Source of the DNA: Xanthomonas sp. NCPPB 1128
Lineage (GTDB): Bacteria > Pseudomonadota > Gammaproteobacteria > Xanthomonadales > Xanthomonadaceae
Direction of reading: 5' to 3'
DNA length: 50,853 bases
Assembly (NCBI RefSeq): GCF_001043115.1
Contig: NZ_LFME01000034.1
Location: 1 to 50,853, forward strand
The notes below the pieces were generated by a model. That model saw only the letters and a program-made list of their open reading frames with translations. It searched no databases and was not told the origin of the DNA. This document shows, in pieces, positions 13,963-36,015 of this stretch (position 1 is its first letter; each line of letters begins with the position of its first letter). The translations under genes and the position numbers were made by a program.

Positions 13963-14426
13963 GCCCGCAGCAATTGCCTCTGCGCGATGTGCATCTGCCG
14001 CCGGCACCGGCCTGGTGGCCGCCCGCACCGGGCTGGTGGATGCTGGCGGCGGTACTGCTGCTGGTGATCGGCGCGGTGCTGTTGGTGTGGTTGCGCCGCC
14101 GCCAGCGCGTGCAGCGCTGGCAACGCCAGTTCGACGCGGCGACGCGCACGGGCGAGCCGCCCGCGCAGGTGGCCGCGGTCTCGGAGCTGTTGCGGCGTGC
14201 GACGCAACGCCGCGACCCGGCCGCTGCCGCGTTGCAGGGCGAGGACTGGCTACGGTTTTTGGATGGCGGTGACAAGCGTCAGGCGTTCTCCGCCGGCCCA
14301 GGCCGTGTGCTGCTCGACGGTGGCTATCGGCCCAGCGTGGACCCGGCGCAGGTGCAGGCGCTGCTGCCGCTGGCACGGCGCCGGTTCCTGGCGCTGATGG
14401 CGGCGCGGCACGGAGGACGGCGATGA
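13959..14426 (+). CDS. DUF4381 membrane protein
   Basis: A 155-residue protein with one membrane helix (about 27-46: WWMLAAVLLLVIGAVLLVWL), then a basic stretch and a cytoplasmic helical domain ending DPAQVQALLPLARRRFLALM. This is the small protein typically found between DUF58 and BatA genes (DUF4381). Its role is unknown; the context suggests it anchors or adapts the MoxR/VWA complex. It overlaps both neighbours by 4 bases (ATGA). Confidence 0.88.
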   Translation: MSPQQLPLRDVHLPPAPAWWPPAPGWWMLAAVLLLVIGAVLLVWLRRRQRVQRWQRQFDAATRTGEPPAQVAAVSELLRRATQRRDPAAAALQGEDWLRFLDGGDKRQAFSAGPGRVLLDGGYRPSVDPAQVQALLPLARRRFLALMAARHGGRR

Positions 14427-15445
14427 GCCTGTTGCCGTCCTCGTGGCAGAGCCTGAGCGACCTGTTGGCCGGCTTCGCCTGGCCCTGGATGTGGTTGGCG
14501 ATGCCACTGCCGCTGCTGGCCAATCTGCTGCTGCCGGCGCGGCGCGGCACTGCGCCGGCCCTGCGCGTGCCGTATGGCGAGCGTCTGCAGGCCGTGGCCG
14601 CGGCACCGGCGCGCGGTGGGCTGTGGCGCGCCAGCGTGTGGCTGGCCTGGCTGGCCTGGTTCTGCCTGTGCGCGGCGGCGGCGCGGCCGCTGCAATTGGG
14701 CGAACCCATCGCGCCGCCGCAGCAGGCGCGGCAGCTGATGCTGGCGGTGGATCTGTCCGGCAGCATGAGCGAGCCCGACATGACCCTGGGCGGACGCGTG
14801 GTCGATCGTTTGACCGCGGCCAAGGCGGTGCTGGCCGACTTCCTCGATCGCCGCGATGGCGACCGCATCGGCCTGCTGGTGTTCGGCCAGCAGGCATATG
14901 CGCTGACCCCGTTGACCGCGGACCTGGCCACCGTGCGCGACCAGTTGCGCGACAGTGTCGTCGGCCTGGCCGGGCGCGAGACCGCGCTGGGCGATGCGAT
15001 CGCGCTGGCGGTCAAGCGCCTGCGCGAGCAGAAGCAGGGCGAGCGCGTGCTGATCGTGCTCACCGATGGCGTCAACACGGCCGGCGTGCTCGACCCGCTG
15101 AAGGCCGCCGAACTGGCCAAGGCCGAACATGTGCGCGTGTACACCATCGCCTTCGGTGGCGATGGCGGCATGTCGCTGTTCGGCCTGCCGATCCCCGGCA
15201 GCGGCGGCGACGATCAGGTCGATGAGGATACGCTGCGCAAGATCGCGCAGGACACCGGCGGGCGTTTCTTCCGCGCTCGCGATACCGGCGAACTGGCCTC
15301 GATCTACGCCGAACTGGACCGGCTCGAGCCGGTGCGCTCGGCCGGTCCGGCGGTGCGGCCGCAGATCGAGCGCTATGTCTGGCCGTTGGCCGCGGCGCTG
15401 ACGCTGGCGTTGCTGTCCTTCATCTGGCCCTGGAGGCGGCAGTGA
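14423..15445 (+). CDS. batA: BatA-like VWA domain membrane protein
   Basis: 340 residues: two N-terminal membrane segments (about 18-38 and 70-88), a VWA domain and a C-terminal helix (about 315-335). The metal-ion-dependent adhesion site is intact: DLSGSMS (DxSxS) at about residues 108-114, with the later threonine/aspartate motif in VLTDGVNTAG. Bat (Bacteroides aerotolerance-type) proteins have been linked to stress tolerance, but the molecular function is unsettled. It overlaps DUF4381 and batB by 4 bases. Confidence 0.92.
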   Translation: MSLLPSSWQSLSDLLAGFAWPWMWLAMPLPLLANLLLPARRGTAPALRVPYGERLQAVAAAPARGGLWRASVWLAWLAWFCLCAAAARPLQLGEPIAPPQQARQLMLAVDLSGSMSEPDMTLGGRVVDRLTAAKAVLADFLDRRDGDRIGLLVFGQQAYALTPLTADLATVRDQLRDSVVGLAGRETALGDAIALAVKRLREQKQGERVLIVLTDGVNTAGVLDPLKAAELAKAEHVRVYTIAFGGDGGMSLFGLPIPGSGGDDQVDEDTLRKIAQDTGGRFFRARDTGELASIYAELDRLEPVRSAGPAVRPQIERYVWPLAAALTLALLSFIWPWRRQ

Positions 15446-17289
15446 CCCGCGTGATGGAATTCCTCCAGGCCCTGCACCTGTTGCGCCCCGCGTGGCTGTG
15501 GGCCTTGCTGTTGCTGCCGTTGCTGGGCTGGAGCTGGTGGCGCCGGCGCCGCCGCCGCGACATCTGGCGGCGCACGGTGGACCCGCATCTGCTGCCGCAC
15601 CTGCTGGCGCGTGGCGACGCCAAGGGCAGGGCCGGCCTGCTGCTGGGTGCGCTGGGCTATGCGCTGGCGGTGCTGGCGCTGGCTGGGCCGAGCTGGCGCC
15701 AGGAACAGCAGCCGCTGTGGCAGGCGCACACGCCGCTGGTGATCGCGATGGACCTGTCCGCGCAAATCGACGCGCGCGATCTGCCGCCGTCGCGGCTGTT
15801 GCAGGCGCGGGCCAAGCTGGCGCGGCTGCTGCACGAGCGCGCCGGCGGCGAAGTGGCCCTGCTTGCGTATGCCGGCGAGCCGTACACGGTGGCGCCGCTG
15901 ACCGACGATGCGGCGAACGTGGGTCTGTTCCTGGATGCGCTGTCGCCGCAGGTGATGCCGGTGGCGGGGCAGCGGACCGACCTGGCGATCGACTGGGCGG
16001 CGCAGTTGCTGCGCCAGGCCGGCTTCTCCCGCGGCGACATCCTGGTGCTCAGCGATCGGGCCGACGCGCAGGCGCAGCAGGCGGCGGCACGCGCGGCCGG
16101 GCAGGGGTATCACGTGTCCGTGCTGGGGTTGGGTACCGCGCAGGGTGCCGCCTATCGCGACGACCAGGGCCGGCTGGCGCATGCGCAACTGGATGCGGAC
16201 GCGTTGCGGGCGCTGGCCGCCGCTGGCGCGGGACGCTATGCCGCGTTGACGCCGGATGACGCGGATCTGCGCGCGCTGGGCGTGCTGCGGCCGCAGGAAG
16301 AAGAGGCGACGGCGGCCGACGAAAGCCATGGTCGCGTGTGGCTCGATCAAGGCTATTGGTTGCTGCCGCCGCTGATGCTGCTGGCATTGCTCGCGTTCCG
16401 CCGTCGTGGCAGTGCCGCGGTGCTGCTGCTGGTGTTGGCGCCGCTGGCGATGCCGCTGCCGGTCCATGCGCAGGCAACGGCGGGGCCTCAGGCACAGACG
16501 CCGGCGTCCGGTCCTGTCGCAGGCGGATGGTGGGAACGTGCCGACCAGGTCCGCCAGCAACGGCTGGACGCGGGCGTGCAGGCCTATCGCAAGGGCGATT
16601 TCGCCGCTGCGCAACAGCAGTTCGAAGGCATCGACAGCGATGCCGGCTGGTACAACCTGGGCAATGCGCTGGCGCGCCAGGGCCGTTACGACGAGGCGAT
16701 CGACGCCTACGACAAGGCATTGAAGCTGCATCCGCAGATGGCCGACGCGATCGCCAACCGCGCCGCGGTGGAGGCCGCGCGCAAGCGCCAGTCGTCGCAG
16801 AACTCCAAGTCCGGTCAGCAGGGCAAGGACGGCCAGCAGCAGAAGAGCGGGCAGTCGCAGAATGGCCAGCAACAGAACGGCCAACAACAAAACGGCCAGC
16901 AGCAGTCGGGCCAACAGCAGAACGGTGCGCAGAAGGACCAGCAGCAGAAGGACAAACAGCAGAACGGCCAGCAGCGGAACGGCCAGCAGGGACGCGATGG
17001 CGCAAAGGATGCGCAACAGGCGCCGCCGAAACCCGGCGATGCGCAGGCGCAGCAGCAGGCCGATGCGGCGCAGCGCCAGCAGATGCAGCAGGCGATGGCG
17101 CAGCAGGGCGGCGCCGACAAGCAGGCGGCCGAACGTGCCGCTGCCGCCGCGAACGAAACGCCGCAGCAGCGCGAGCAGCGCCAGGCGGTGGAGGCGTGGT
17201 TGCGGCGGGTGCCGGACGATCCGGGCAATCTGCTGCGCGCCAAATTCAGGCTGGAACACGAACGCAGGCAGCGGGAACAAGAGCCATGA
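15442..17289 (+). CDS. batB: BatB-like VWA protein fused to TPR and Gln-rich tail
   Basis: A 615-residue protein combining what are BatB and BatC in other bacteria. N-terminal membrane helices (about 15-25 and 65-82), a VWA domain (about 90-290), membrane segments (about 300-345), a TPR region (about 370-445: WYNLGNALARQGRYDEAIDAYDKAL), then a Gln/Asn/Gly/Lys low-complexity tail. The MIDAS is degenerate: DLSAQ replaces DxSxS, so the second serine is missing. Start GTG 15442 has GGAGG 5 bases upstream; ATG 15454 in the same frame is an alternative. It overlaps batA and batD. Confidence 0.9.
   Translation: MTRVMEFLQALHLLRPAWLWALLLLPLLGWSWWRRRRRRDIWRRTVDPHLLPHLLARGDAKGRAGLLLGALGYALAVLALAGPSWRQEQQPLWQAHTPLVIAMDLSAQIDARDLPPSRLLQARAKLARLLHERAGGEVALLAYAGEPYTVAPLTDDAANVGLFLDALSPQVMPVAGQRTDLAIDWAAQLLRQAGFSRGDILVLSDRADAQAQQAAARAAGQGYHVSVLGLGTAQGAAYRDDQGRLAHAQLDADALRALAAAGAGRYAALTPDDADLRALGVLRPQEEEATAADESHGRVWLDQGYWLLPPLMLLALLAFRRRGSAAVLLLVLAPLAMPLPVHAQATAGPQAQTPASGPVAGGWWERADQVRQQRLDAGVQAYRKGDFAAAQQQFEGIDSDAGWYNLGNALARQGRYDEAIDAYDKALKLHPQMADAIANRAAVEAARKRQSSQNSKSGQQGKDGQQQKSGQSQNGQQQNGQQQNGQQQSGQQQNGAQKDQQQKDKQQNGQQRNGQQGRDGAKDAQQAPPKPGDAQAQQQADAAQRQQMQQAMAQQGGADKQAAERAAAAANETPQQREQRQAVEAWLRRVPDDPGNLLRAKFRLEHERRQREQEP
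16801..17000 (+). repeat. Gln/Asn/Gly-coding low-complexity tract in batB
   Basis: Repeated CAGCAGAACGGCC-like units encode QQNGQQQNGQQ blocks with interspersed Lys/Asp. This is a slippage-prone tract of roughly 200 bases and likely encodes a flexible, disordered linker between the TPR region and the short C-terminal helix. Confidence 0.75.
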
Positions 17290-23429: not shown

Positions 23430-24194
23430 TCAACCGCGCTTGCGCGGCTTGCTGCGCGGTGTCGCCGGTTTGCTGGCGGCGCTGCCGGATTGCTGCGGCT
23501 TCGCCAGTGCGCCGCCATCGTGTAATTGCTGCAGCCAGGACAGTGCGTCGACGTAGGACAGGAAGTGCTGCAGGTAGCCGGGCGAGAGCGTGCGCATCAG
23601 CGCCAATGCGCGATGCACCAGCACGCCGGAGTTGAGCGGGCCGGCATCGGTGGGGGCCGGTTGCAGCGACTGCCGCAACTGGCTGCGGCTGCGCAGTTCG
23701 GTCCACAGCCGGCGCGCGTCTTCGACCGCGGGCAGTTGCGGCGCGGTGAGTCGCGCCGCGGCGGTTGCTGCGGCGGGCGAGGGCGCTGGTGCAGGGGCTT
23801 CTGCGCCGCTTGCGTCGGCCGCCCTGGAGGCTTCGCCGCCGGCATCCAGGTCGGTGGCGGTGCCAGCGGCGTGGTCGGTGCCGGCGCGGGTCGCAGTGGC
23901 CGCGGGGCGGCACTGTGCCAGCAAGGCACCGAGCGGGCCGGGTTGCGTCGCTCGCACCGTCGCGGCGGGCTCATCGTCGACGACGCCCTGCGGCGCCGCG
24001 GCCAGTGTCGCGGCATAGGCATCGAGCAGGGCCGACAGCTTCTGCTCCAGCAGTTCCCGCGCCTTGCCTTGCTGTGCCTCGGTGCGGCGCGCCAGTGCTT
24101 CGATGACGCGGAAGCGCAGCGGGTCCAGCCGCTCGGCATGCTGTGCACGCCAGGCGGCGAGGCGATCGGCGGCGGCGATCCGATCAGGGCGCAT
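23430..24194 (-). CDS. DUF2894 family protein
   Basis: A 254-residue protein, predicted cytoplasmic and helical. N-terminal helix MRPDRIAAADRLAAWRAQHAE, a Gln/Arg-rich helical stretch (about 20-60), a disordered Ala/Pro/Thr-rich centre (about 75-150), a conserved C-terminal domain (LWTELRSRSQLRQSL, NSGVLVHRALALMR, YLQHFLSYVDALSWLQQL) and a Lys/Arg tail. It matches what I know as DUF2894, found beside OmpA-like and DUF802 genes in Xanthomonas and Burkholderia. The start 24194 overlaps the OmpA-like gene end by 11 bases; an upstream in-frame extension is Arg/Trp-rich and unlikely. Last gene of the four-gene cassette. Function unknown. Confidence 0.8.
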   Translation of the reverse strand: MRPDRIAAADRLAAWRAQHAERLDPLRFRVIEALARRTEAQQGKARELLEQKLSALLDAYAATLAAAPQGVVDDEPAATVRATQPGPLGALLAQCRPAATATRAGTDHAAGTATDLDAGGEASRAADASGAEAPAPAPSPAAATAAARLTAPQLPAVEDARRLWTELRSRSQLRQSLQPAPTDAGPLNSGVLVHRALALMRTLSPGYLQHFLSYVDALSWLQQLHDGGALAKPQQSGSAASKPATPRSKPRKRG

Positions 24195-24834
24195 GCGGTG
24201 TCGCGGCGCGCTTGCGCATGCGCGGCAGCGGTGCCATTTCCACGCGGCGATTGCTGGCGCGTCCGGCCTCGTCCACGTTCGGCGCCACCGGCTGCTGCGC
24301 GCCGAAGGCCGCGGCGAAGACGGCATCGGCCGGGACGCCTGCCTCGATCAGCGCTCGGGTCACGGTCAACGCGCGTTCGGCCGACAGCTCCCAGTTGTCG
24401 GCGAACTGGCGATTGCTCTCGCGCACCTGGCGGTCGTCGGTGAAGCCGCTGACCATCAGGATCTCGTCGCGCGCCTTGAGGTAGCCGGCCAGTGGCGCGG
24501 CCAGGCTCTTCAGCAGGTCGCGGCCCTCCGGCTGCAACTGGTCGGAGTTCAGCGCGAACAGCACGTTGCCGCGGATGCCGATGCGGCCGTCGACCAGGGT
24601 CACCCGGCCCGCCGCAAGCGGCGCGGCCAGCGCCTGTTCCAGGGTCTTGCGCTGTTGCGCTTCCAACTGACGCTGGCGCATCTCCGCATCCAGCTTGTTC
24701 GACAACTGCAACTGCACGCCGATCACCCCGATCAGGATCAGCACGAAGGCGCCGAGCAGCACCGACATCAGGTCGCCGAACACCGCCCAGACCGGCGCGC
24801 CGCTGTCCGCGTCGAGTTCCAACTCGTCGCTCAT
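24184..24834 (-). CDS. MotB/OmpA-like stator subunit
   Basis: 216 residues. A single membrane helix (about 15-42) carries D21 in VWAVFGDLMSVLL, in the position of the proton-accepting aspartate of MotB/ExbD/TolR. A short coiled linker leads to an OmpA-type peptidoglycan-binding domain (about 85-205) with NWELSAERALTVTRALIEAG and an ASNRRVE ending, both standard OmpA_C features. So it should anchor to peptidoglycan and complete an ion channel with the upstream DUF802 protein. Start 24834 overlaps the DUF802 stop (ATGA), implying translational coupling. It resembles ZorB topology, but no ZorC/D/E is nearby. Confidence 0.9.
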   Translation of the reverse strand: MSDELELDADSGAPVWAVFGDLMSVLLGAFVLILIGVIGVQLQLSNKLDAEMRQRQLEAQQRKTLEQALAAPLAAGRVTLVDGRIGIRGNVLFALNSDQLQPEGRDLLKSLAAPLAGYLKARDEILMVSGFTDDRQVRESNRQFADNWELSAERALTVTRALIEAGVPADAVFAAAFGAQQPVAPNVDEAGRASNRRVEMAPLPRMRKRAATPHAP

Positions 24835-27287
24835 GCTGCGTCGGCCTGGTCGGGCGCCTGGCGCGCGGCGAGCTGGCGCAGCTCCTCGGTGATCTGCTGC
24901 TGCGAGAGCATGCTCAGGTCGATCACCTCACGCGCCTGCGCCACGTAGTAGGCCAGTTGTTCGTCGCTGCGCGCCAGCGACTTGTCCAGTGCCTGCTCGA
25001 TGCCCTGCAGGCGTTCCAGCAGGGCCATGTTCGATTCGCCGAAGGCCTGCACCGCGCCGGAGAACGCGTCGCCCAGGCTGGCGACCTCGGTGGCGCCGGC
25101 GACGACCTGCGCGGCGGCGTCGTCGAGCTTGCCGGTCTGCGCTTCGATCTGCTCGGTGAAGCGGCTGCCGACGCGCTCCAGCAAATCCGCCGAGGTTGCG
25201 ACCAGGGCATCCACCGCGCTGCGTTGCTCGGTGGAGGCGTGGTTGACCGCCTTCAGCAAGGTCTGCAGCGTGGCCAGCAGGCGGTTGCGCTCGTCGAGCA
25301 TCGCGGTGTCGCGGACCATGCTGTCGGAGAGCTTCTGGCGTAGTTCCGCGACCATGTCGGCCGCGGCTTTCGGCGCTTCCGAGGCCACCTGCACCAGCCG
25401 CTCGATCTCGGCGATGGTGTCGCGCGCCTGCGCCTGGCTCTGCTCGGACATCGCCGCGGCGGTCTCCTGCAGGGTGCTGCAGATCTCCTGCTGGCGCTGC
25501 GCGATGCGCTCGCCGTGGTGCTCCCATTGCCCGCCGAGGGTTGCGGCCATGCTGGCGAAGCTGTCGGTCCAGGCCCGCAGGCGCGCCTGGTCGCGCGCTT
25601 CCAGCGCGTCCTGCAGGCCGGCATGCGCCTGCTGCAGCGTCTCGGCAAGCGCGGCGGCGCGCTGTTCCAGGCTGGCCGCGGCGGTGTCCAGCGCCTGCGC
25701 ATTGCGCACCGCCAGGGCCTCGTTGATCTCGCGCTGCTGCGTCAGCGCCGCGCGCCAGGCCTGTTGCGCGGCCTCGGCGGTGGCGTCCAGGCGGGTCGCC
25801 ACGGTCTCCAGCGCCTGCGCATGGCGTGTGGCGAGGGTGTCGTTGACCTCGCGTTGCTGTGTCAGCACCGCCCCCCAGGCCTGCTGGACGGCCTCGGCGG
25901 TGGCGTCCAGGCGCGTCGCCACGCTGTCCAGTGCCTGCGCGTTGCGTGCGACCAGGGCTTCGTTGGCGTCGCGCTGCTGCGCCAGCGCGGCGTTCCAGGC
26001 CTGTTGTGCAGTCTCGGCAGTGGTATCCAGGTGGCTCGTTACCGTATCCAGTGCCTGCGCATGACGCGCGGCGAGGCCGTCGTTGGCCTCACGTTGTTGC
26101 GTCAGGGCCTCGGCCCAGGCTTGCCGGGCGTCGTCGCTGGCGGCCTGCAGGCGGGCTGCGGTCGCCTCCACCAGGGTGCTGGCACGCTGTTCCAGGCCGT
26201 CGCCGGCGCGTTGCAGCGCGCTGCCGAGCTCCTGCAGCAGCGCGCCATTGGCGCGGTGCTGCGCGGCCAGCGCGCTGTCCCAGCGCTGCGTGGCCTGCTC
26301 GGCGGCCTGGGCGAAGCCGTTGGCCAGGCCGTCCAGTTGCCGCTGCACTGCCTGGCCGACGGTGTCCTGCAGCGCGGCGGTCTCGCGCGCCACGCCGTCG
26401 AGCGTGCGTTGCACCACCGGTTCCAGCGCGTCGCCGAACGCACGCGCGTGCGCGGCCACACCGGCCTGAAGGGCCTGTTCGACTGCCCCGGCCAGGCGCG
26501 TGTAAGCGGCCTCGGTGCGGCTGTGGAAGGCGTCCTGGCTGCTGACCAGACGGTCGCCGCTGACCGCACTGTGCTGTTCCAGCGCCGCCATCATCGTCTG
26601 CATGCGCTCGATCAGGCCCGGCATCAGCGTGGCCTGGGTCTGCAGCAGCTTGAAGGCCTCGTTGCGCTGGTAGGCCAGCGAGTGCGTGCGCAGCGCGGTG
26701 GCCGCATGCAGATCCAGTTGCTGCACTGCCTGCAGGCGCTCGCGCCGGCACAGCGCAGCGAGCAGGCCGAGCATCGCCGAGGCGGCCACGCCGGCGATGG
26801 AGGTGCCGAAGGCGAAACCCAGGCCCTTCAGCGGCGCCGCCAGCGAGGCGCGGATGGCATTCAGATCGGTGGCGCTGTCCAGCGCCAGGCCGGTGCCGCG
26901 CAGCGTCGCCATCATGCCCAGGAAGGTGCCGAGCATGCCCAGGAGCACCAACAGGCCGACCAGGTACGGGGTCAGCGCCGGCACCGGCAGGGCCGCGCGC
27001 TCGCCTTCGATGCGCAGGCGCACCGCGTTGCGCAGGCTCGGGTGCAGCCGTTGCAGCCAGCCGCCCAGATCGTCGCGCGCGGACTCGGCCTCGCGCAGCG
27101 CGGTCTGCAGGGTCGCGGTGGCCTGGCGGTAGCGGTACAGCTCGGCGATGCCGGCCAGGTAGCACAGGCCGATCAGCGCGGCGAAGCTGGCGCCCAGCGG
27201 GTTGGAGCCGAGATAGCCGACGCCGATCCAGCAGACCACGGCGAGGCCGGCGAGGAACAGGACGGAATGGAGCAGGGTCTTGGGCAT
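24831..27287 (-). CDS. DUF802 protein: MotA/TolQ-like membrane core with long coiled-coil arm
   Basis: 818 residues. The N-terminal quarter holds about four hydrophobic segments (about 5-25, 30-47, 103-125, 157-185). The third contains LLGMLGTFLGMMATL and the fourth GFAFGTSIAGVAASAMLG, which match the conserved GLLGTxxG and TAxG helices of MotA/TolQ/ExbB. From about residue 200 to the end it is almost pure Ala/Gln/Glu-rich helix, including four 40-residue tandem repeats (390-549) and tail segments resembling chemoreceptor coiled coils. The family is DUF802 (uncharacterised). Start ATG 27287 (MPKTLLHSVLFLAGL); an upstream in-frame extension would overlap DUF3348. Predicted stator partner of the MotB-like protein. 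Confidence 0.88.
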   Translation of the reverse strand: MPKTLLHSVLFLAGLAVVCWIGVGYLGSNPLGASFAALIGLCYLAGIAELYRYRQATATLQTALREAESARDDLGGWLQRLHPSLRNAVRLRIEGERAALPVPALTPYLVGLLVLLGMLGTFLGMMATLRGTGLALDSATDLNAIRASLAAPLKGLGFAFGTSIAGVAASAMLGLLAALCRRERLQAVQQLDLHAATALRTHSLAYQRNEAFKLLQTQATLMPGLIERMQTMMAALEQHSAVSGDRLVSSQDAFHSRTEAAYTRLAGAVEQALQAGVAAHARAFGDALEPVVQRTLDGVARETAALQDTVGQAVQRQLDGLANGFAQAAEQATQRWDSALAAQHRANGALLQELGSALQRAGDGLEQRASTLVEATAARLQAASDDARQAWAEALTQQREANDGLAARHAQALDTVTSHLDTTAETAQQAWNAALAQQRDANEALVARNAQALDSVATRLDATAEAVQQAWGAVLTQQREVNDTLATRHAQALETVATRLDATAEAAQQAWRAALTQQREINEALAVRNAQALDTAAASLEQRAAALAETLQQAHAGLQDALEARDQARLRAWTDSFASMAATLGGQWEHHGERIAQRQQEICSTLQETAAAMSEQSQAQARDTIAEIERLVQVASEAPKAAADMVAELRQKLSDSMVRDTAMLDERNRLLATLQTLLKAVNHASTEQRSAVDALVATSADLLERVGSRFTEQIEAQTGKLDDAAAQVVAGATEVASLGDAFSGAVQAFGESNMALLERLQGIEQALDKSLARSDEQLAYYVAQAREVIDLSMLSQQQITEELRQLAARQAPDQADAA
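25641..26120 (-). repeat. Four tandem 120-bp repeats inside the DUF802 gene
   Basis: Units start at 26120, 26000, 25880 and 25760, each exactly 120 bases. They encode 40-residue copies beginning AWxxALxQQRxxN and containing ARHAQALDTVxxxLDxTAE (unit 1 wording). The fourth diverges in its last third. No frame change occurs between units. Confidence 0.9.
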
Positions 27288-27297
27288 GAGGGTCGAA

Positions 27298-28029
27298 TCA
27301 ACGGCTGCGAAGCGCGGCGAGCAGCGCTTCGATGGGATGGAAACGGACGTCCAGTTCGGCGCGCAGCACGCTGTGCAGGTCCTGGCGGAACAGGGCCAGC
27401 CAGGCCGCGTCGGACGGCGCCGGCGGAGCATCGGTGAGAGTTGGATCGGGAACAGGCGCGGCGGTGGCGCGCAGGCGCTGGAAATGCGTTTCCAGCAGGT
27501 TCGGCACCGTCGCCAGCAGGGTCTGCTCGCGCGGGCTGAGGGTCAGCTCCATGACCGCGTCGACCTCGGCCAGCCGCGCCATGTCGGGCGAAAGCGGGAC
27601 CAAGGCATCGCGTAGCAGGCCGCGCAGACGCCCGGTGGCGGTGAGCATCGCCCGCTGCAGCGCCAGGTAGCGCTGGCGGAACGGCGCGTACTCGATGGGG
27701 GCATCGGGGTCGTGCTGGCGCTTGCCCACGGGCTTGCCGGTTTCCTTGGCGATGTCCAGGGCGATGCTCTCTTCCAGCGCGGCGCGCACGCGGCCGCATT
27801 CGGCCTCCAGCGCCGATGGTTCCGGCGCCGCGGGAGCGTCCTCGGCAGGCTCGGGCAGTTTGCCGTCCAGCGCCCGCGACACCGCCACCGCGCGGTTCCA
27901 GTCGATCCATTGGCCGAGCCGGTCGGCCAGCGCGGGGCTGGACGCGGGCATCGGCGCATCGCTCAGGCGCGCCAGCAGGCGAATGAAGGCCGGGCCCGGG
28001 ACGGGCGCCCGTGGAAGGGCTTTCGCCAT
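27298..28029 (-). CDS. DUF3348 family protein
   Basis: A 243-residue, probably cytoplasmic, mainly helical protein beginning MAKALPRAPVPGPAFIRLLARL and including LADRLGQWIDWNRAVAVSRAL. This N-terminal pattern is what I recognise as DUF3348. A central stretch has YAPFRQRYLALQRAMLTATGRLRGLLRDAL, and the C-terminus has WLALFRQDLHSVLRAELDVRF. First gene of the cassette, 10 bases before DUF802. ATG 28029 is chosen over an in-frame TTG at 28041. A TAAAAT hexamer (28056-28051, minus strand) is a weak -10 candidate, leaving a very short leader. Function unknown. Confidence 0.8.
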   Translation of the reverse strand: MAKALPRAPVPGPAFIRLLARLSDAPMPASSPALADRLGQWIDWNRAVAVSRALDGKLPEPAEDAPAAPEPSALEAECGRVRAALEESIALDIAKETGKPVGKRQHDPDAPIEYAPFRQRYLALQRAMLTATGRLRGLLRDALVPLSPDMARLAEVDAVMELTLSPREQTLLATVPNLLETHFQRLRATAAPVPDPTLTDAPPAPSDAAWLALFRQDLHSVLRAELDVRFHPIEALLAALRSR

Positions 28030-31177: not shown

Positions 31178-32323
31178 TCAGTGGCGCAGGTCGACGCCGT
31201 GGCAGTCGACGTGCGGACGTTGCGGATTGCAGCGGGCGACAGCGTCGCCGGGAAAGCGCACCACGTAGCCGGAGGCGGCCGGTTCGTGATCGGGGAAGTC
31301 GGTGCTGAGCAGTTGCGCGCCGCTGGCGAGCATGACGTCGCGCCGTGCGGTGTCGTTGCGCTTGGCTTCCTTGAGGTCGGCATCGGTGCGCGTGCGCACG
31401 AGATAGCCGGCCTTCACCAACTGCGCGATTTCCTCGGCGCTGCCGTCGTTGCGCTCGACGAAGGCGGCATCGTCGGTGCCGGGATCGGCGTTGGTGAAAC
31501 ACACGCGGCCGCGCAAGGACGGATGGCCCGCGACGTAGGCCGGGCCGACCGAACGCTGGTCGAGCAGGAACACCACCTTGCCGCGCGCGGCCGCCAGCGC
31601 CGGCCAGCCATGCGCGAGCACGGCAGCGTTGAGCGTGGCGGCGCTGCCGCGTACCTGGTCGGGGCTGATGTAGTCGTTCGCGGCGAACACCGAGCGCAGT
31701 TCGGCGTCCAGCGCATCCAGCGCCTCGCCGTCGAACGGCTCGGGCTGCACCGTGGGAAAGGCCGCCGGCACGGTCGATTGCTTGGTTTCCAGCAGGATGA
31801 AGATCGGCAGATGCCTGGGATGCCGTTGCGACCACGCCCGTACCTCGCGCAGGCAGGCCAGCAGCGGTTGGCAGGTGCTGCGTTGGTCGAGGTCCTGGAT
31901 GTGCATGACCTTGAAGCCCGGTTGTTGCATCACACCCGGCGCGGCGATCGGCGGCGCCGGCGGCAGCCCGGCCTTGGCGAGTTGGTCGATCATCGCCGGG
32001 TGTGCGTAGCGCCCACCCTTGGCGTCGGCGTAGATGTCCAGTTCGATCTGGCGCACGCCATCGTCCAGTTGCTGCGTCAACGGCGGATGCCGGTAGTCCA
32101 GCACCGCGAACGTCGCCGGGTCCAGGCGTTTCCACAGCGCCGCTTCACTGGGCGCGAAGCCGGCGTGGTAGCTGTTGTGGCTGCCGATGTACTGCAGGTC
32201 GGTGAGTCTGGGCTGTGCGTGCAGCGTCAACGGCAACAGCGCCAATGACACCAGCCGCGCGCGCAATGCGGCTGATGCGTTGCGGGGCTTCGACGACCTC
32301 GGGACAGAGTGCTTGGAAGGCAT
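31178..32323 (-). CDS. Secreted Ca2+-dependent PI-PLC-like phosphodiesterase
   Basis: A 381-residue exported protein resembling Streptomyces-type Ca2+-dependent phosphatidylinositol phospholipase C. The first catalytic histidine lies in IGSHNSYH, the metal acids in GVRQIELDIY, and the second histidine in VMHIQDLDQRSTC. The C-terminal half (VVFLLDQRSVGPAY, VCFTNADPGTDDAAFVERND, LLSTDFPDHEP) follows the PLC barrel pattern. A signal peptide (ARLVSLALLPLTLHAQ) sits after about 20 basic residues. The start is uncertain: ATG 32323 has no Shine-Dalgarno, and the frame is open to 32446. Predicted substrates are phosphoinositides or related phosphodiesters outside the cell. Confidence 0.85.
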   Translation of the reverse strand: MPSKHSVPRSSKPRNASAALRARLVSLALLPLTLHAQPRLTDLQYIGSHNSYHAGFAPSEAALWKRLDPATFAVLDYRHPPLTQQLDDGVRQIELDIYADAKGGRYAHPAMIDQLAKAGLPPAPPIAAPGVMQQPGFKVMHIQDLDQRSTCQPLLACLREVRAWSQRHPRHLPIFILLETKQSTVPAAFPTVQPEPFDGEALDALDAELRSVFAANDYISPDQVRGSAATLNAAVLAHGWPALAAARGKVVFLLDQRSVGPAYVAGHPSLRGRVCFTNADPGTDDAAFVERNDGSAEEIAQLVKAGYLVRTRTDADLKEAKRNDTARRDVMLASGAQLLSTDFPDHEPAASGYVVRFPGDAVARCNPQRPHVDCHGVDLRH

Positions 32324-32661
32324 CGCGGGCACGCTTGGTAACGATATCTCCACAGCATCCCGAACGGAGTTGACGCGTTTCCTGCGTGCGTGTTGCGGAA
32401 TCGTGTCATGGCTGGTGCCGTGCCACGATCGTGCGCAGCGTCCCATGCGCGCGCGATCGTCGTCACCTTGTTGCGCCTGGTTGAAGGGCGCCTCCGAGAA
32501 TTCGCTTTTGCCGCGACTCAGCGCGCGGCGGTCGCTCTTGTAGGAGCGGCTTCAGCCGCGACGGGGCATTCCCGGTAAGTCGCGTCGCGGCGGATGGCCC
32601 AAGGCCACGTCGAGCAGCTCCTACATGTGAGCTGCGTCGATGGGCGGCGCCTGCGCACGCG
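32324..32661. other. Intergenic region with degenerate REP
   Basis: 338 bases between the phospholipase gene start and the CoA-transferase gene end. The only recognisable content is REP element 3. No convincing ORF or RNA gene is seen. Confidence 0.6.
32540..32624. repeat. REP element 3 (degenerate right arm)
   Basis: The left arm GTAGGAGCGGCTTCAGCCGC(GAC) at 32540-32562 is intact. The right side keeps GTCGCGGC and a terminal GCAGCTCCTAC but has roughly 18 inserted or changed bases between them. Confidence 0.7.
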
Positions 32662-35361: not shown

Positions 35362-36015
35362 TCAGTCCAGCCGATGCACCGCGTCGGCGATGCGCGCCAC
35401 TTCCTCGGCCTGGTGGCTGACGTAGAGCATCGGCAGGCGCACTTCGTCGCGCACGCGCTGCAGGTAGGGAATCAGTTCGCTGCGGCGATCGGCGTCCAGC
35501 GCCGACAGCGGTTCGTCGAACAGCAGCAGCGACGGCTGCGCCAACAACGCGCGGCCGATCGCCACGCGCTGTGCTTCGCCACCGGAGAGCGTGTCGGGGC
35601 GCCGCCCCAGCAGGGCGCCGATGCCGAGCAGGTCGACCACCGCGTCCAGGGCGAAGCGCGCCGGCTGGCCGCGGCCGTGGCGGCCGTAGCCGAGGTTGCG
35701 GCGCACGTCCATGTGTGGGAACAGCCGAGCGTCCTGGAACACGTAGCCGATGCCGCGGCGGTGCGCCGGCAGGTCGATGCCGGCGGCGCTGTCGTACAAC
35801 ACCCGGCCATCGATGGCGATGCGCCCGCTGCGCGGCGGCAGCACGCCGGCGATGGCGTTGAGCAGGCTGGTCTTGCCGGCGCCGGACGGGCCGACCAGGG
35901 CGACCACCCGCGCCTGTTCCTCGATGCGCACGTGGCGGGCGAAGCGCCCGCGCTGCAGGTGCAGGTCGATGCTCAGCATCGGCGCAGGCTCCGGGCGCAC
36001 GCGCCGCTCATGCAT
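35362..36015 (-). CDS. modC: Molybdate ABC transporter ATPase ModC (short form)
   Basis: A 217-residue ATPase energising molybdate import. Walker A GPSGAGKTS (about 42-50), Q-loop FQDARLFPHM, signature LSGGEAQRVAIGRALL, Walker B LLLFDEPLSALD and H-loop YVSHQ are all present. It ends soon after the H-loop, so the C-terminal Mop/TOBE regulatory domain (about 130 residues in E. coli ModC) is absent. Start ATG 36015 overlaps modB by 8 bases and follows GGAGG closely; ATG 35979 (MLSIDLHLQRG) is an alternative that better fits family N-termini. Confidence 0.92.
   Translation of the reverse strand: MHERRVRPEPAPMLSIDLHLQRGRFARHVRIEEQARVVALVGPSGAGKTSLLNAIAGVLPPRSGRIAIDGRVLYDSAAGIDLPAHRRGIGYVFQDARLFPHMDVRRNLGYGRHGRGQPARFALDAVVDLLGIGALLGRRPDTLSGGEAQRVAIGRALLAQPSLLLFDEPLSALDADRRSELIPYLQRVRDEVRLPMLYVSHQAEEVARIADAVHRLD

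Follow-up and report, generated by a model that had tools for sequence, protein, structure and literature searches.

The operon and its gene set

The stretch of DNA analysed here (the window) is the 50,853-nucleotide contig NZ_LFME01000034.1 of Xanthomonas sp. NCPPB 1128. At positions 23430-28029 of its minus strand lie four co-directional genes, in the order DUF3348, DUF802/MotA-like, MotB/OmpA-like and DUF2894, spaced by a gap of 10 bases and then by overlaps of 4 and 11 bases (Table 1). A reading made from the sequence alone had proposed that they encode an undescribed ion-driven stator with a long arm, and the layout it gave is confirmed by the coordinates. The same values are the commonest spacings across 123 related loci (10 in 78 loci, -4 in 111 and -11 in 44). 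Gene starts in the related loci were chosen by a script, not taken from annotation, and include a DUF3348 gene of 4 amino acids (aa; locus L117) and a DUF2894 gene represented by an overlapping 422-aa frame (L176).

Table 1. Features of the window, with the evidence for each
Feature	Position	Strand	Basis
DUF3348 protein, ZorG3 in PADLOC-DB, 243 aa, first gene of the operon	27298..28029	-	Pfam PF11828 2.7e-84; PADLOC PDLC00658 3.3e-84
ZorA3 (MotA/TolQ-type subunit, long cytoplasmic rod, DUF802), 818 aa	24831..27287	-	Pfam DUF802 2.2e-31; PADLOC PDLC00650 E=0
ZorA3 motor, residues 1-215, with invariant T121, T162, S163	26643..27287	-	Alignment of 21; coordinates computed from residue numbers
ZorA3 rod, residues 216-624 (409 aa = commonest 289 + 120)	25416..26642	-	Anchor hidden Markov models (HMMs)
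Tandem array in the rod, 120-bp (40-aa) unit, 3.8 copies	25666..26120	-	Tandem Repeats Finder; protein repeats
ZorA3 conserved distal tip, residues 625-810	24858..25415	-	186-residue anchor, no net length change in 124/124
ZorB3 (MotB-like: one membrane helix with D21, and OmpA-type domain), 216 aa	24184..24834	-	Pfam OmpA 4.7e-18; PADLOC PDLC00651 7.8e-115; PRK09040 equivalog 2e-114
DUF2894 protein, ZorF3 in PADLOC-DB, 254 aa, basic C-terminal tail	23430..24194	-	Pfam PF11445 5.2e-54; PADLOC PDLC00652 1.3e-65
Two tandem VWA-domain proteins, the second with TPR repeats	14423-17289	+	Domain scan
Ca2+-dependent phosphoinositide phospholipase C family protein, near TonB receptor	31178-32446	-	PI-PLC-C1 5.7e-133
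ABC-type ATPase, probably an ordinary ABC transporter ATPase	35362-36015	-	Partial PADLOC mad3 match 3.8e-29

All four proteins match the PADLOC models of Zorya type III, which requires ZorA3, ZorB3, DUF3348 and DUF2894 in one operon, and judged by these matches the locus is Zorya type III, a known kind of anti-phage machine. The name type III dates from 2021 and was based on 6,401 loci (PMC8565338; Payne et al. 2021). In the same work an operon of Stenotrophomonas nitritireducens, from a genus that is also in our comparison set, was expressed from a plasmid in Escherichia coli BL21-AI, where plaquing was significantly reduced for at least one of the phages tested and liquid cultures were protected when the phage dose was low. 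The window locus is like the published type in all four families and in their clustering, with no defining difference found; relative to the commonest type III its rod is longer by 120 residues, or three 40-aa units. The term 'undescribed' thus has to be dropped, an operon of this type having been tested against phage in 2021, and a new stator family is rejected on the four PADLOC matches, which also overturn the earlier judgement that a Zorya variant was the less likely option.

That judgement had leaned in part on the lack of ZorC, ZorD and ZorE. None was indeed found among the four proteins or the ten flanking open reading frames (ORFs) scanned, but the argument fails for type III, which has DUF3348 and DUF2894 where type I (ZorABCD) and type II (ZorABE) carry those proteins. 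A single ZorC model also gave no match in 20 genomes of the window's genus, in a search made without a positive control. The names used here are those of PADLOC-DB 2.0.0, in which ZorG3 is DUF3348 and ZorF3 is DUF2894; they are swapped in the 2021 text, where ZorF is DUF3348 and ZorG is DUF2894 (PMC8565338; also PMC11890865).

The four genes are found together far beyond chance. Forty loci, seeded with DUF3348, were examined from 53 DUF3348-positive genomes, and in 39 of them the set is complete and in the same order. The other 13 genomes comprise the window's own, several with short contigs and others, three of the latter re-entering the locus set as named loci (L099-L101). Over 127 loci the set is complete in 123, and three of the four exceptions are located at contig ends. 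In a sample of 119 genomes DUF2894 was found in 37 of the 38 that have DUF3348 and in none that lack it; in the one remaining genome DUF3348 sits on a contig of 3,070 bases. The DUF2894 model also exceeded its cut-off in one of 14 control genomes, that of Corynebacterium glutamicum, a distant control.

Motor, rod and tip

The MotA/TolQ/ExbB-type motifs noted earlier in the DUF802 protein are present in ZorA3 as LLGMLGTFLGMM (residues 115-126) and GTSIAGVAASAMLG (residues 161-174), and the motor residues T121, T162 and S163 are invariant in all 21 aligned ZorA proteins. Asp21 of ZorB, described in the sequence-only reading as a membrane aspartate in a MotB-like context, lies in VWAVFGDLMSVLL and is invariant in 17/17 aligned ZorB proteins. 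Its companion claim of an OmpA-type domain is borne out by a family match at 4.7e-18, from which peptidoglycan binding is predicted; D146, N147 and R154, invariant in the same 17 proteins, are at positions that we take to be peptidoglycan-binding.

Profile comparison with solved structures, proposed as a check on both membrane proteins, gave for the profile of 21 ZorA3 motors a single match at an E-value of 0.01 or better, to 8vvn_C (1.2e-5). The ZorB3 profile matches 8vvn_B (8-207) and 8qyd_F (8-200), the membrane helix included; most of its MotB matches cover the OmpA part only. We take 8vvn and 8qyd to be Zorya complexes, the structure labels reading only MotA/TolQ/ExbB-domain, MotB-related and membrane proteins. 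The length of 8vvn_C, 696 residues, agrees with that of the Shewanella ZorA of PMC11890865. Because the sole solved match of the motor profile is 8vvn_C, taken as ZorA, and because D21 is invariant, the prediction that ZorA3 and ZorB3 are a stator-type pair holds, and with the conserved Thr/Ser pore residues so does the earlier picture in which such a pair bears a long helical arm and is joined by two small soluble proteins. Likeness to types I and II extends to the Thr/Ser pore residues and long cytoplasmic extension of a ZorA-like motor, and to a ZorB with membrane Asp and OmpA-type domain, with 8vvn and 8qyd as solved relatives. In those types the conserved Asp of ZorB is surrounded by conserved Ser/Thr of ZorA, and defence requires the ZorA extension, ion flow and peptidoglycan binding (PMC11890865).

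The locus could instead encode, in the sense of the sequence-only reading, a TolQR-, ExbBD- or MotAB-like system without kinship to Zorya. It shares with these pairs the membrane-core motifs, the Asp-bearing helix and, by inference, a stator-like way of working; a Pfam MotA_ExbB match was obtained, weak and short of the gathering cut-off (E 0.023; 14.9 bits against 22.9), and for the OmpA part of ZorB the top scores are to MotB chains. The type III motor is however similar to theirs only weakly by sequence, and to our knowledge none of them has a long rod or tip. With the motor profile matching only 8vvn_C among solved chains, the ZorB matches to 8vvn_B and 8qyd_F starting at the membrane helix where most MotB matches are limited to the OmpA part, and the PADLOC type III models fitting all four proteins, this explanation is already disfavoured and we regard it as very improbable.

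After the motor, ZorA3 continues from residue 216 to 818 as the extension of about 600 residues reported before, a long cytoplasmic stretch that is a Zorya feature and that divides into a rod and a distal tip. Rod lengths were compared in 124 ZorA3 proteins (122 distinct tree rows) with HMM anchors of 116 positions in the motor and 186 in the tip. Both anchors show zero net length change in all 124 proteins. In 43/124 the rod that separates them has 289 residues; the other lengths differ mostly by tandem blocks, and the full range is 256-820 residues, that is from 33 fewer to 531 more than the commonest, with motor and tip lengths unchanged. The window's extra 120 residues appear as a single clean gap against the 698-aa X. 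albilineans protein; in other lineages the tandem units are 22, 29, 47, 51, 62, 69, 80, 84, 87 and 98 residues long. This very variable, phase-locked rod sets type III apart from types I and II, within which component size is described as well conserved (PMC11890865).

Conservation follows the same division. Among 30 ZorA3 proteins of exactly 698 aa, scored per 20 residues, it is 0.86-0.96 in the motor (residues 81-180), 0.60-0.76 in the rod (221-480) and 0.83-0.93 over residues 501-600; this set carries 14 genus labels, a mixture of GTDB-style codes and names of which some may coincide. Mean column identity in the tip is 79% (18 proteins), and averaged over pairs from 60 loci identity reaches 0.71 in the tip, 0.69 in the motor, 0.74 in ZorB, 0.51 in DUF3348 and 0.42 in DUF2894. 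The conserved free end suggests that the tip is a candidate binding site. Its profile found no convincing match among solved structures (best E 0.027). Apolipoprotein matches of ZorA were taken as reflecting amphipathic-helix composition.

Both the blocks and the changes in rod length keep step with the helical turn, at about 3.63 residues. The 11 distinct unit lengths (the ten above and the window's 40) fall near whole turns at 3.63 residues per turn with R = 0.95, a value reached by 0/3000 random sets; with 80 and 87 dropped as multiples the remaining nine units again give R = 0.95, where none of 5000 random sets was as high (top 0.939). Measured from anchor to anchor, rod-length differences have R = 0.77 for 34 distinct values and 0.80 for 45 genus-by-value cases at 3.634, with a mean phase of 5-8 degrees, and 0/2000 random sets were as high. 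Parsimony on the tree calls for at least 51 changes of rod length, one reconstruction of which yields R = 0.80 at 3.632; when lengths were jittered by 5 residues at most, R rose no higher than 0.47 in 4000 sets. Only two of the 51 inferred changes are shorter than 10 residues. Where draft assemblies have collapsed repeats, the number of copies could be affected, but not the length of the unit.

The hydrophobic period of the rod is 3.6-3.7 in 124/124 proteins (median 3.665, near the hendecad value of 11/3; 3.655 in the window) and 3.45-3.55 in none. Two ZorA type I proteins have periods of 3.59 and 3.645; as a comparison for the rod test type I was dropped, with only 2/398 genomes at E 1e-40. 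Taken together, the length and period data suggest that the rod changes length almost only by whole helical turns. It is probably a register-constrained, hendecad-like bundle that bears the conserved tip, and we read it as right-handed or nearly straight, with register-preserving changes alone surviving, few exceptions apart. As far as our searches of the open-licence literature show, most of which were aimed at topics other than the rod, this phase rule is new, and so is the constant length of motor and tip over the 124 proteins.

What the rule implies is less certain. The periodicity fits the pentameric rod of types I and II, yet by itself it does not show motion passing along the rod. Phase locking might reflect coiled-coil continuity and say nothing about the transmission of motion, with length itself neutral, an explanation of the rod (not of the identity of the system) that we consider a serious contender, somewhat short of probable. 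It is favoured by the expectation that a continuous helical bundle resists out-of-register insertions, and by a rod that runs from 33 residues below to 531 above its commonest length between a motor and tip of constant length. Against this, many coiled coils tolerate stutters and skips, whereas changes below 10 residues are so rare here, and the commonest rod length is common to genera of three families.

Distribution and genomic site

DUF3348 was found in 20/20 species of the window's genus, 35/35 of Xanthomonas, 87/91 of Stenotrophomonas, 109/117 of Paraburkholderia and 51/60 of Cupriavidus. These five genera were selected since wider samples showed the gene in them, and the names given to them are probable ones, based on agreement in contigs, coordinates or tree position; the window's genus would be the X. 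albilineans/bonasiae group, apart from the Xanthomonas genus proper. In the wider samples the gene is present in 38/119 genomes and 18/54 genera at family level (absent from 81 genomes and 36 genera) and in 20/398 genomes, 19 of them above the cut-off, at phylum level. HSDR_N, tried in Xanthomonas as a patchy defence-gene contrast, proved a weak one, being in 32/35 genomes with 0-3 matches.

Some genera keep the operon at a stable position and others do not. In the window's genus tkt adjoins it, 131-567 bases off, in 15/16 loci, and flanks are shared by 13/16 loci upstream and 15/16 downstream; the corresponding counts are 14/15 and 13/15 in Xanthomonas and 12/13 on both sides in Paraburkholderia. 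Stenotrophomonas loci are scattered over several sites, the largest group holding 5/12. Over all 124 loci, 38 have upstream and 43 downstream flanks that match no other. In a tree made by a quick method, 94 Lysobacterales rows and one Bacillus-labelled record form one branch (Shimodaira-Hasegawa-like approximate likelihood-ratio test, SH-aLRT, 99). Most genera cohere, mostly following taxonomy; the two Xanthomonas groups are not sisters. Compared with six relatives, the window's genes have ratios of non-synonymous to synonymous substitution (dN/dS) of 0.03-0.56, with 0.06-0.15 for tkt. Taken as a whole this suggests a machine that genera retain, not one that moves about.

DUF3348 occurs in 27 plasmid records, all large replicons of Burkholderiales plus one Azoarcus (smallest 366 kb), and was absent from the phages and viral contigs searched. 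ZorB gave a single phage match, an OmpA-type stretch of 37.5% identity, and had no match in a DNA search of E. coli genomes.

Several records stand out. The Xanthomonas sp. AmX2 locus (L101) groups with Pseudoxanthomonas helianthi (support 86), not with its own genus, and has no tkt on the locus, so a replacement by transfer is possible. In another species of the window's genus (G133; L071:8203-9804), beside tkt, a single frame runs from the ZorA rod into the C-terminal region of DUF2894, a deletion having removed ZorB, the tip and part of DUF2894; this locus is decayed or altered. The Bacillus-labelled record, titled Bacillus subtilis (L107), has a Stenotrophomonas-like operon and is probably a contaminated or mislabelled assembly. 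In four Paraburkholderia (g122) genomes (G718, G743, G775 and G792) DUF3348 is in two pieces, from contig breaks, inserts or broken genes. On Caballeronia plasmid p1 (L098) a split transketolase pair, encoded on the other strand, comes directly after DUF2894, a resemblance to tkt in the window that could be chance.

In line with the earlier reading, no defence island was seen around the operon among the ORFs scanned. The ten ORFs flanking it in the window encode VWA/TPR proteins, a dicarboxylate symporter, the phospholipase C family protein, the ABC ATPase, a beta-lactamase-fold protein and others, and a PADLOC scan of them returned nothing but the partial mad3 match of the ABC ATPase (Table 1). 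Ten ORFs at one Xanthomonas and one Paraburkholderia locus gave no PADLOC match; of the 20 flanking ORFs scanned, eight (four per set) match no Pfam family and are possibly not the true frames. At four annotated plasmid loci 0/66 flanking genes are named as defence, and one of these loci has an integron integrase roughly 5 kb away.

In several genera the operon is distributed as a resident gene set would be, which gives indirect support to the housekeeping function suspected in the sequence-only reading and lends itself to a different account of the role: a lineage-persistent housekeeping machine of the envelope or cytoplasm built on ZorAB, the anti-phage effect in E. coli being a side effect of expression from a plasmid. 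The near-complete presence in five genera, the flanks common to most loci in three of them, the lack of matches in phages, viral contigs and E. coli, the dN/dS values and a tree mostly in line with taxonomy all speak for it. So does a 2026 survey of R. solanacearum, in which type III Zorya is highly conserved, in at least 90% of the species' genomes (PMC13064858). With that survey, persistence within a species is already in print; our counts over several genera were not found in the open-licence literature searched. On the other side, absence from two-thirds of the genera of the same family makes the operon dispensable at genus level, Stenotrophomonas loci occupy several sites, within the window's genus one species lacks ZorB and the tip after a deletion and the copy of another looks foreign, and anti-phage activity is in print (PMC8565338). 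We hold the housekeeping account to be possible rather than probable; defence is the likelier role, because it was tested directly in E. coli.

A proposed motor with a phase-locked rod

The best explanation as a whole, and one that we consider rather probable, is a type III Zorya system whose ion-driven motor carries a phase-locked rod. ZorA3 and ZorB3 would form an inner-membrane motor, predicted to be a 5:2 assembly and held to peptidoglycan through ZorB. The ZorA chains would bundle into a long, presumably pentameric cytoplasmic rod, hendecad-like at about 3.63-3.67 residues per turn and ending in the highly conserved tip. Were the envelope disturbed, for instance by a phage, the ZorA ring would be set moving by ion flow, and motion or strain would travel along the rod to the tip. 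There ZorF, with its basic tail, and ZorG may bind tip or rod and act as sensor or effector, replacing ZorCD or ZorE. Anti-phage activity is attributed to the window's operon by analogy with the homologous one published in E. coli.

The two small proteins are the obvious candidates for binding the tip. The last 25 residues of ZorF have a net charge of +4 or more in 123/126 proteins; for ZorG this is so in 0/123. Comparison of the two profiles indicates that they are unrelated (probability 1.4%), and neither has a convincing match among solved structures (best E 0.11 for ZorF and 0.17 for ZorG).

Several points weigh against this explanation. Total ZorA length is without phase signal (R 0.26-0.28, p 0.67-0.69), the signal appearing only between the conserved anchors, which we take to be due to variable protein ends; and the phase locking may amount to local coiled-coil continuity only. 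Scans with Pfam, PADLOC and related models found no nuclease, helicase or other catalytic domain in ZorF or ZorG, in contrast to the effectors of types I and II, which are reported as nucleases. Nor is the operon distributed like a mobile defence system. In Burkholderia cenocepacia K56-2 challenged with one phage, knockdown of any predicted defence system caused no change in fitness, although transcripts did change for the leading one or two genes of both Zorya I and Zorya III (PMC12584637).

A bolder version of the model, which we put forward tentatively and think rather unlikely, makes type III an ion-driven machine, resident in its lineages, whose drive shaft is quantised. Selection would hold motor and tip at a fixed angular phase. 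The two would be about 40-120 nm apart, counting 0.15 nm for each of the 256-820 rod residues, provided that the rod is a single straight bundle of helices. Rotation or strain would be delivered to a fixed target recognised by ZorF and ZorG, and defence would be one use, perhaps not the main one. With a natural series of rods of 256-820 residues, set between a motor and a tip that do not vary in length and obeying a simple rule of helical phase, the drive-shaft idea is open to direct testing. It bears on how ZorAB ion flow is converted into an anti-phage act, for which type III is the least studied type, with little open-licence literature. The distribution, in turn, questions whether a system that PADLOC counts as defence is mainly defence in its native hosts.

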